A stretch of 64,000 nt of DNA, taken from Chitinispirillum alkaliphilum. Its GTDB lineage: Bacteria > Fibrobacterota > Chitinivibrionia > Chitinivibrionales > Chitinispirillaceae. The stretch spans positions 186,001-250,000 of the forward strand of contig LDWW01000002.1 of the NCBI GenBank assembly GCA_001045525.1. The letters run 5' to 3'. The position numbers were made by a program, and so were the translations under genes. Below the pieces are notes generated by a model that was not told the DNA's origin, did no database searches, and saw only the letters and a list, made by a program, of their open reading frames with translations. Shown piece after piece: positions 21,558 through 24,201 of this stretch (position 1 is the first letter of the stretch; the number at the start of each line of letters is the position of its first letter).

Positions 21558-22583
21558 TTATGAAATCATGTTGTGTGTCCACCTGATAATTTTCTCAGTT
21601 TTTTTCCACCCTATACAGGAATCGGTAACAGAGATTCCATATAGGAGTTTGTTTTTATCTGCTATTAGTTTCTGATTTCCATCCTCAAGATAACTTTCTG
21701 CCATAATTCCTTTTAGACCACTTTCTCCGCTGCTTTTACGCAAGACAATATCCTTCCAAACGTGCATCTGATTGTCATACCCACCCGAACAGTTCATATG
21801 ACTGCAATCAACAATAACAGAGCTGTTAACTTCTGCATCGTTTAACAGCATTGAAGCCCTGAGACATGACTTTTTGTCATAATTTGGACCAGTTTTCCCA
21901 CCCCGTAGAATAATATGCCCGTAGTGATTTCCTTTTGTGCGAATCAGACACACTCTGCCATTGGGATCTATTCCCGGATAGCAGTGAGAGGAAGATGCTG
22001 CCTTTATGGCATTTACCGCAGTTTCAAGAGATCCATCGGTGCTGTTTTTGAAACCAACCGGAATATCAATACCACTGGCACTCTGGCGATGAATCTGAGA
22101 CTCAGAGGTACGGGCACCGATTGATGTCCAGCTGACAAGATCACTTACGTAATTATACACCAAAGGATCAAGCATCTCCATTGCCGCAGGAAGCCCCAAA
22201 CCGGTAATTTCTGAGAGCAATTTTCTGGCCATAGTCAATCCACTATGCATATCTAATCCCCCATTCATATCTGGGTCATGAACCAACCCCTTCCAGCCAA
22301 GAGCAGTCCGGGGTTTCTCAAAATAAAGCCGCATGACTATGAGCAGTTTATCCTCAGTTTCACCTCTTAGTCTGTTGAGCCGCTTAGCATAATCAATAGC
22401 CCCCTTGGGGTCGTGTATGGAACATGGCCCAACAATTAGCAGCAATCTGTCATCCTTCCCATCGAGAATCCTCTTTATATCTTCTCTCCCCTGTTCTACT
22501 GTTATTCTCGATTTGCTACTTTGAGGTATCTGTTTCATCAATTCAGCAGGTGTAACCAGTGGTACAGAAATATTTTCCATCAT
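21558..22583 (-). CDS. aroG: 3-deoxy-7-phosphoheptulonate (DAHP) synthase, class I
   Basis: It joins phosphoenolpyruvate and erythrose 4-phosphate in the first step of aromatic amino acid synthesis. It shows the AroF/G/H family motifs GPCSIHDP (about 52-59), RLYFEKPRTALGWKGL (about 85-100), SIGARTSESQIHRQ (about 153-166), KGNHYGHIILRGGK and DCSHMN. The length of 341 is typical. AAAGGAG lies 3-4 bases before the first of two adjacent ATGs. Directly upstream lie two tandem leader-peptide attenuators, so expression probably responds to charged Phe, Tyr and Trp tRNAs. I cannot tell from sequence which end product inhibits the enzyme itself, so the G/F/H letter is provisional. Confidence 0.93.
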   Translation of the reverse strand: MMENISVPLVTPAELMKQIPQSSKSRITVEQGREDIKRILDGKDDRLLLIVGPCSIHDPKGAIDYAKRLNRLRGETEDKLLIVMRLYFEKPRTALGWKGLVHDPDMNGGLDMHSGLTMARKLLSEITGLGLPAAMEMLDPLVYNYVSDLVSWTSIGARTSESQIHRQSASGIDIPVGFKNSTDGSLETAVNAIKAASSSHCYPGIDPNGRVCLIRTKGNHYGHIILRGGKTGPNYDKKSCLRASMLLNDAEVNSSVIVDCSHMNCSGGYDNQMHVWKDIVLRKSSGESGLKGIMAESYLEDGNQKLIADKNKLLYGISVTDSCIGWKKTEKIIRWTHNMIS

Positions 22584-22597
22584 TTTCTCCTTTACAT

Positions 22598-22629
22598 AAA
22601 AAAAGCCCCCTCTTCTGAGGGGGCTTTTT
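22598..22629 (-). terminator. Attenuator terminator 2, directly before aroG
   Basis: A perfect 13-bp stem (AAAAAGCCCCCTC with GAGGGGGCTTTTT, 4-base loop) runs into seven Ts on the minus strand. It ends 15 bases before the aroG start, so it can only act as a conditional terminator for aroG. Confidence 0.92.
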
Positions 22630-22660
22630 GGTTTTTATATCAGATCTAAAACAATTACCT

Positions 22661-22762
22661 TTATCCCCCCATTTTTGACAGGCTAAAATACCAAAAAAAG
22701 AAGTACTCAAAAGCATTGGTACAGTTTAGGTTTTCATCTGTTTTGATTTTTTCTGGAATCAT
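22661..22762 (-). CDS. Aromatic leader peptide 2 (attenuation control)
   Basis: A 33-codon frame starting at the ATG at 22762, preceded by a purine-rich AGAGAAAG. Residues 20-26 read YFFFWYF, a run of seven consecutive codons for Tyr, Phe and Trp. It ends with Met-Gly-Gly-stop (codons ATG GGG GGA TAA). That G run can pair with the C run of the following terminator's first arm, the expected antiterminator. The stop codon is 31 bases before the terminator stem. The peptide has the same length as leader 1 but unrelated flanking residues. Its function is inferred from this layout. Confidence 0.85.
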   Translation of the reverse strand: MIPEKIKTDENLNCTNAFEYFFFWYFSLSKMGG

Positions 22763-22782
22763 CTTTCTCTCTTTTACCCCAC

Positions 22783-22811
22783 AAAAAAAGCCCCTCAGAA
22801 GAGGGGCTTTT
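22783..22811 (-). terminator. Attenuator terminator 1
   Basis: A perfect 11-bp stem (AAAAGCCCCTC with GAGGGGCTTTT, 4-base loop) ends in seven Ts on the minus strand. It is nearly the same sequence as terminator 2, which suggests duplication. The first arm can instead pair with AGGGGCTT at 22848-22855, inside leader 1, over eight bases. Confidence 0.92.
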
Positions 22812-22835
22812 GATCGTTTTCTATTCAGGTATACC

Positions 22836-22937
22836 CTAAAACGCCATAAGCCCCTTGCAGGTTTTAAAAAACCAAAAGTAAAAATATGAGACTGTTTGTG
22901 TAGCGTTTTTGATAACTTTTTCTTTGTTCATACTCAT
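22836..22937 (-). CDS. Aromatic leader peptide 1 (attenuation control)
   Basis: A 33-codon frame from the ATG at 22937 (a second ATG is at codon 3). Residues 18-24 read YFYFWFF, seven consecutive aromatic codons. The codons after the run contain AAGGGGCTT, complementary to the first arm of terminator 1. A ribosome stalled on the aromatic run would free this segment to form the antiterminator; one reaching the stop codon would cover it. The ribosome site is weak, and a TATATT just upstream could be a -10 box. Transcription from there would leave little leader, so read-through from trpB is also possible. Confidence 0.83.
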   Translation of the reverse strand: MSMNKEKVIKNATQTVSYFYFWFFKTCKGLMAF

Positions 22938-23001
22938 AATATAATCTTAGCAGCAAAAAACGTGTCATTTTTTTTCCAAAAACTTCAGTTTTTCACCGGT
23001 G

Positions 23002-24201
23002 TTATCTAATTCCGTAATTATCTACTACAAAGTCTATGTCCTTGTCTCCGCGTCCAGACAGATTTACCAGTATCGAATTACGTTTGTTTTCAGTTGCATA
23101 TTTCATTGCAAAGGCAACCGCGTGAGCACTTTCCAAAGCAGGTATGATCCCTTCAACTTTAGACAACGTATAAAACGCATCAAGACACTCTTCATCACTG
23201 GCATAGGTATACTCTATTCTCTTTTTGTCCTTAAGCATACAGTGCTCCGGACCAGACCCCGGATAGTCAAGCCCACTTGCAATCGAGTACACAGGTAGTG
23301 GTTCACCTTTTTCATCCTGAAGCATATAACTCTTAAATCCATGAAGCACCCCTGGTGCTCCGTAGGTAAGACTGGCCGCATGGTCCCCAACCTTAAAGGA
23401 ACGTCCGGCAGGTTCCACACCAATCATCCTTACATCCTCATCCTTGATAAAGCCAGAGAAAATCCCCATGGCATTTGATCCACCTCCAACACATGCGGTA
23501 ACAGCATCCGGCAGCTCCCCGGTCATCTCCATAAACTGCTCCCTGGCTTCCAGACCGATTACATGCTGAAAATCCCGAACCATCATAGGGAAGGGGTGAG
23601 GTCCCACAACTGAACCAATACAGTACATGGAATTTACGGGATCCTTGAGATAGGACTCAAATGCAGAATCCACCGCTTCCTTCAGCGTTTTTAATCCATG
23701 GCTCACAGGGACAACTTTGGCTCCAAGCAGCTTCATTCTTACCACATTTGGATGTTCCTTTTTAATATCGACTTCACCCATATGGATTTCACATTCTATA
23801 CCGAAATATGCCGCAGCCGTTGCAAGTGCAACCCCATGCTGACCAGCTCCGGTCTCAGCAATAACCTTCTTCTTACCCATATGCTTTGCAAGAAGAGCTT
23901 CGCCCATGCAGTGATTTAATTTATGAGCCCCTGTATGATTAAGATCCTCGCGCTTGAGGTATATACGTCCACCAAGTTGGTTTGAAAGATTCTTGCAGTA
24001 GTAGGTGGGAGTTGGACGCCCCTGGAAATGTTTGCGAATGTTTCTCAGCTCAGAAATAAACTCATGCGATTTGCTTATCGAATAGTATGCATCAGTTATG
24101 CTGTCCATCTCTTTTTGAAGTTCCGGTGGAATAAAAGAACCCCCATATTCACCGAAATAACCATTGCTGTCAGGATACTTTTTTAAATAATCACTCACCA
24201 T
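23002..24201 (-). CDS. trpB: Tryptophan synthase beta chain
   Basis: A PLP enzyme joining indole and serine to tryptophan. It is a 399-residue TrpB1-type protein with the PLP lysine K94 in [10 protein letters not shown]. Also present are the catalytic glutamate region [12 protein letters not shown], the phosphate loop GGGSNAMG and the C-terminal [13 protein letters not shown] precedes the ATG. It stands without trpA or other trp genes here, which is unusual for TrpB1. It lies upstream of the double attenuator and aroG on the same strand, so trpB transcripts could feed into the attenuators. Confidence 0.97.

Follow-up and report, generated by a model that had tools for sequence, protein, structure and literature searches.

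AroG catalyses the first step in the synthesis of the aromatic amino acids, and model bacteria control this entry to the shikimate pathway by means such as TyrR and TrpR in E. coli. Attenuation is known from the pheA and trp operons of E. coli, where the leaders pheL and trpL carry a run of cognate codons and the antiterminator and the terminator are mutually exclusive. For a DAHP synthase gene itself, a single attenuator is reported from Corynebacterium glutamicum: the leader aroR in front of aroF contains the codons Phe-Tyr-Phe (Neshat et al., 2014, as cited in PMC11802643 and PMC4046766). A predicted uORF motif, uORFC-13-1, lies upstream of aroF in Acholeplasma (PMC8632094). A survey of Actinobacteria from 2005 described attenuators of trp, cysteine and leucine genes and no conserved RNA structures in front of phenylalanine/tyrosine genes (PMC1262725). 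Elements placed in series are described as well: mgtCBR of Salmonella has tandem leader-ORF attenuation which responds to two different signals, ATP and proline, and which was called singular by its authors, according to whom such genes are normally under a single attenuator (Lee and Groisman, 2012; PMC3641672), and tandem riboswitches precede metE of Bacillus clausii, as cited in the same paper (PMC3641672). An earlier note on the DNA analysed here had proposed two tandem attenuators in front of aroG and knew of no described pair of this kind. This agrees with our literature search, which was mostly limited to open-access papers and found no tandem attenuators of aromatic genes, while single attenuators of DAHP synthase genes are described.

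Our analysis of a stretch of 64,000 nucleotides from Chitinispirillum alkaliphilum (the window) implies that aroG is, very probably, preceded by two complete ribosome-mediated transcription attenuators in series, as judged from the sequence. Located on the minus strand, the tandem is flanked by trpB (23002-24201) and aroG, and the second T tract is separated from the aroG start codon by 14 nt. Each unit consists of a small ORF containing seven consecutive aromatic codons, a G-rich arm and an intrinsic terminator, and two such units follow each other (Table 1). Both 33-codon frames and both terminators were found exactly where the earlier note had placed them, and the complementarity of the G-arms to the 5' arm of each terminator was confirmed by the pairing analysis. 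The G-rich segments are present as claimed, but their location had to be corrected, as each of them is contained in the 3'-terminal part of its leader ORF. Leader 1 stands as an open frame, but its start may not: the second ATG could be the true start, judging by the MN... beginnings in two relatives. A search of both leader peptides against Pfam and NCBIfam gave no match.

Table 1. Positions of the regulated gene, the candidate promoter and the elements of both predicted attenuators in the window.
Feature	Position	Strand	Details
Candidate promoter of the leader-aroG transcript, weak	22941..22968	-	ATGACA-16-GATTAT; sequence match; relatives have a better promoter at the same place
Leader ORF 1, 33 codons (31 if ATG at 22931)	22836..22937	-	MSMNKEKVIKNATQTVSYFYFWFFKTCKGLMAF; kept in L002, L003, L004
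Aromatic control codons, leader 1 (YFYFWFF)	22866..22886	-	TAT TTT TAC TTT TGG TTT TTT; sequence; register around the Trp codon conserved
Antiterminator arm 1, within leader 1 frame	22848..22855	-	AGGGGCTT; 8 bp with 22802-22809, the 5' arm of terminator 1, which doubles as antiterminator partner
Intrinsic terminator 1, stem-loop and 7 T	22783..22811	-	core hairpin -15.9 kcal/mol
Leader ORF 2, 33 codons	22661..22762	-	MIPEKIKTDENLNCTNAFEYFFFWYFSLSKMGG; kept in L002, L003, L004
Aromatic control codons, leader 2 (YFFFWYF)	22685..22705	-	TAC TTC TTT TTT TGG TAT TTT; sequence
Antiterminator arm 2, overlaps final codons of leader 2	22665..22671	-	TGGGGGG; pairs with terminator 2 5' arm (22617-22623)
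Intrinsic terminator 2, stem-loop and 7 T	22598..22629	-	core hairpin -18.6 kcal/mol
aroG/aroF-type DAHP synthase (type I, AroFGH family), regulated gene	21558..22583	-	TIGR00034 429 bits (cut-off 173); NF009395 459 bits (cut-off 343)

The two terminators (cores AGCCCCTCTTCTGAGGGGCT for terminator 1 and AGCCCCCTCAGAAGAGGGGGCT for terminator 2) had been described as nearly identical. The likeness is real, but the relation is one of reverse complementarity: terminator 2 corresponds to the opposite strand of terminator 1 and has a G-C pair in addition, its loop being TTCT in place of AGAA, and the two could pair with one another over about 20 bp. This relation is seen in the window and is absent in the relatives, therefore an inversion or conversion event may have taken place in the lineage of the window. 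As for the surroundings, among the four tandem genomes trpB is the direct upstream neighbour of the tandem in this one only, no trpA was recognised among the large frames near it, and readthrough from trpB would enter both attenuators too.

The search of 61 genomes revealed three more genera of the window's family (L002, L003 and L004) in which the tandem is located directly before the orthologous aroG; it is thus known from four genomes in all, the window's included. The leaders of units 1 and 2 are MTNYFYNAAYFYFWFKT and MITYNSNTDTSYNKDGYFCSFFYFWYFRLPIRGLC in L002, MNTKIYTCPFYFYFWLKT and MTNYKSAFYFYFWYFTPAILRGHG in L003, and MNITYQNARYFYFFWFKT and MRKTTIRSTVTLNGRFFYYWFFYAFMAGGG in L004. The single Trp codon TGG is invariant, the changes within the aromatic run are mostly synonymous or Phe/Tyr swaps, and of the 48 codons at positions -4 to +1 around the Trp codon in both units of the four genomes, 47 are aromatic, while the codons farther from the run vary freely. 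The AroG proteins encoded behind the tandem form one clade in the tree (support 98) and are 62% (L002), 55% (L003) and 51% (L004) identical to that of the window. Such divergence within one clade indicates that both units were kept over a long time, and the sequences are consistent with a single origin of the doubling, which would then have been kept in all four genomes. The earlier note had named relatives with conserved terminators and no conserved aromatic runs as the observation that would speak against it; when this was checked, all four genera with this aroG clade turned out to keep both units together with their aromatic runs. Two members of the family with a more distant AroG, L005 and L007, lack the tandem, and their gene is not preceded by any combination of aromatic leader and terminator. 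In the tree, the closest neighbour of the tandem clade is the AroG of L031, a metagenome bin titled Klebsiella pneumoniae isolate HRSG-E1-bin-52, a label that looks wrong for such a sequence; neither leader nor terminator was found upstream of it.

Attenuators of the trp, phe and his type combine a leader ORF that has a codon run for the end products of the pathway, an intrinsic terminator between this ORF and the structural gene, and a suitably placed antiterminator which is mutually exclusive with the terminator. Both predicted frames of the window contain seven aromatic codons each, and the terminators are supported by sequence and by folding. The antiterminator was found in all eight units of the four genomes: the G-arm can form 7-10 contiguous base pairs with the 5' arm of the terminator, and cognate arms pair better than swapped ones (mean -18.2 versus -15.3 kcal/mol, p about 1e-4 in a permutation test on the eight units). 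The two arms also change together, as illustrated by GGGGUUCG with CGAACCCC in unit 1 of L004, CCGGGGG with CCCCCGG in unit 2 of L002 and CUCAGGGG with CCCCUGAG in unit 2 of L003. The spacing fits too. The last aromatic codon ends 8-13 nt upstream of the G-arm in the eight units, which is expected to leave the arm free when a ribosome stalls on the run. Termination codons are placed at the arm itself in the first units of the relatives (UGA AGGGG); counted from the arm start, the remaining units have theirs 7 to 17 nt further downstream, therefore a terminating ribosome should cover the arm. A UGA that overlaps the G-arm or immediately precedes it closes leader 1 of L002, L003 and L004 (AAR ACC TGA); the window has lost this UGA (ACC TGC AAG), and its frame continues for 7 codons, through the G-arm.

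Classical attenuators also have a hairpin between regions 1 and 2, a pause or protector element by which termination can occur in the absence of translation. Conservation of this hairpin in every unit was considered as well and is unsupported: its z-score is +0.4 in both units of the window. It is significant in unit 1 of L004 (-3.0) and borderline in unit 1 of L002 and both units of L003 (-1.9 in unit 2).

The aromatic run is not rare by itself: the pattern (F/Y)(F/Y)(F/Y)W(F/Y) has 12 matches in the whole genome, as compared to 9 for the reversed control pattern, and we rejected rarity of the run as an argument. A terminator was detected downstream of just two of these 12 matches, namely the runs described here. 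When the upstream region of each of the four genomes was shuffled 1500 times with its dinucleotides preserved, a unit with at least 5 aromatic codons out of 8 never appeared. In the four tandem genomes, trpE and the prephenate dehydratase gene are not preceded by an aromatic leader that is followed by a terminator, and the same holds for the second DAHP synthase gene of the window's genome. Therefore, within the set of genes that we checked, the device is restricted to this aroG, and its place at the entry of the whole pathway fits the mixed codons.

The genes farther upstream of the tandem are unrelated between the genomes, and in L002, L003 and L004 a promoter of the form TTGACA-17-TATATT or TATTTT, read by eye, is located just upstream of leader 1; taken together, this indicates that the device has its own promoter. 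The match in the window is weak, and the start predicted from it falls at or just before the ATG of leader 1. The predicted start of L004, and probably of L003, is likewise at this ATG or a few nt before it, with no Shine-Dalgarno sequence, thus leader 1 may be leaderless. The leader peptide of the ilvBNC attenuator from C. glutamicum, reported to be made without a ribosome binding site (cited in PMC4046766), offers a precedent. A purine-rich stretch weakly resembling a Shine-Dalgarno sequence precedes the ATG of leader 2 in the window. One could argue that only the second unit works: terminator 1 would then simply end the trpB transcript or serve as an insulator, and leader 1 would be a decayed copy, given that unit 1 of the window starts about 65 nt past the end of trpB and the stop codon of its leader has moved downstream relative to the relatives. 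However, three genera keep unit 1 although a gene other than trpB lies upstream, and a clear promoter of the TTGACA-17-TATATT type stands ahead of the unit in each of them; its aromatic run is conserved as well as that of unit 2, and its antiterminator arm forms 8-10 bp with the cognate partner across the genomes. Thus we consider it improbable that unit 1 is a mere remnant.

Tandem ribosome-mediated attenuators, as the earlier note had proposed, are therefore the best reading of the locus, given that the relatives keep both units and the antiterminator pairing co-varies. The observations behind it are the anatomy, the presence of both units in four genera, the conservation of the codons and the cognate pairing; from these we infer translation of the leaders, stalling, termination and a product rule. 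RNA polymerase would start just upstream of leader 1. With all three aromatic tRNAs (Phe, Tyr and Trp) charged, the ribosome would pass the aromatic codons, reach the stop codon and cover the G-arm, so that the terminator would form; when any of the three tRNAs is scarce, the ribosome would stall on the run, the G-arm would pair with the 5' arm of the terminator and the polymerase would continue. The same test would be repeated at leader 2, ahead of aroG. Since full expression would require readthrough at both units, the total readthrough should be approximately the product of two similar curves, and this product would result in lower leak and a steeper response to the general aromatic supply.

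The mix of Tyr and Phe codons and their positions differ slightly between the units, and it might be thought that each unit has its own input, so that the pair would combine different amino acids or signals in a logic operation, in the manner of Salmonella mgtCBR. Against this, a single Trp codon accompanies Phe and Tyr codons in both units of all four genomes, in near-identical register, and no other residue is enriched in just one unit, which makes different inputs rather unlikely. A riboswitch or a protein-bound RNA could also control the terminators, the aromatic ORFs being coincidental; riboswitches too have terminators with alternative pairings. The Rfam family RF01859 (Phe_leader) matches the units of the window with 43.2 and 39.1 bits, which is below the gathering threshold of 55, and no family reaches the gathering threshold in 12 loci of the relatives. 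Moreover, the aromatic codons are conserved at fixed geometry in all eight units, and the same codon theme recurs before DAHP synthase genes in unrelated orders, hence coincidental ORFs are exceedingly improbable. The E-value matches of BTnc231, MicC and Leu_leader in the window were set aside, as they rest mainly on the terminator hairpin. One mixed aromatic input, sensed twice by ribosomes, thus remains our preferred reading.

Single leaders of this mixed kind occur far from the window's family. A Desulfobacterales-like order (around L061, a Desulfobacteraceae record) has a single mixed-aromatic leader with a terminator before the DAHP synthase gene in 27 of 30 loci and in 5 of 7 further loci of this order, for example MTQSAGRTFFYFWYFYYGTGLPGVR; a Dehalococcoidia-like order (around L035 and L048, Chloroflexi/Dehalococcoidia records) has such a leader in 13 of 28 further loci, as read from the list. 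In the Desulfobacterales-like leaders a segment of the GGUCUGCC type pairs with the terminator arm of the GGGCAGACC type, and cognate arms are again better than swapped ones (p about 0.003). These distant bacteria thus have one unit of the same kind of switch, as opposed to the doubling in four genera of the window's family, and no second leader was found in the Desulfobacterales-like set. Another way of doubling the stop is seen there: 13 of 25 loci (L135-L163) have a second terminator-like hairpin 4-17 nt after the first, without a leader of its own. A pattern search throughout the phylum gave a single match, which says little about the distribution, as most units fall outside the narrow gap bounds of the pattern. 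Mixed-codon aro leaders are widespread and, to judge from the 12 loci scanned against Rfam, apparently uncatalogued, and this wider class of DAHP synthase leaders merits a description of its own. Its presence in Desulfobacterales-, Dehalococcoidia- and Fibrobacterota-like genomes suggests that pooled aromatic sensing by ribosomes is common at the entry to the shikimate pathway outside the model bacteria.

In comparison with E. coli pheL and trpL, the units described here likewise have a leader codon run and a mutually exclusive antiterminator and terminator, whereas those leaders and RF01859 are single and read one amino acid, and the window units score below the Rfam threshold. As in aroR-aroF, a leader attenuator with aromatic codons is predicted directly before the DAHP synthase gene, and by analogy each window unit would work like aroR through ribosome-mediated attenuation. 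However, aroR is a single unit with three control codons and, in the accounts that cite it, no Trp codon is reported. The Acholeplasma motif uORFC-13-1 is similarly a candidate uORF attenuator with a terminator before a DAHP synthase gene, but it is single, contains Phe only, and belongs to a different motif and lineage (PMC8632094). The metE leader of Bacillus clausii is alike in that one gene is preceded by two complete elements in series, each controlling a terminator; as cited, these are metabolite-binding RNAs for two different ligands and act without a ribosome. The mgtCBR leader also contains a pair of leader ORFs, both of them sensed by the ribosome, and is contrasted by its authors with a leader that has two intrinsic terminator sites (PMC3641672); in our case a terminator is present in each unit. 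Furthermore, mgtCBR combines ATP and proline signals in a virulence and Mg transport operon, whereas the tandem here doubles one type of signal, with the same mixed aromatic run in both leaders as judged from the codons. On balance we favour the view that the locus represents a conserved pair in series, both members of which read one mixed Phe/Tyr/Trp signal. Two similar decisions on readthrough would thereby be multiplied, so that leak would be very low and aroG would respond steeply to the pooled aromatic supply where the pathway begins. In this view the tandem is also the doubled form of an extensive family of mixed-aromatic leaders, as yet uncatalogued, which precede DAHP synthase genes in at least three phyla. 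Such a conserved duplicate is a natural test of what attenuation in series adds in terms of leak, steepness and noise, with units that can be removed singly. Thus the single unit is of a known kind, whereas its complete and conserved doubling for one input is a new form.
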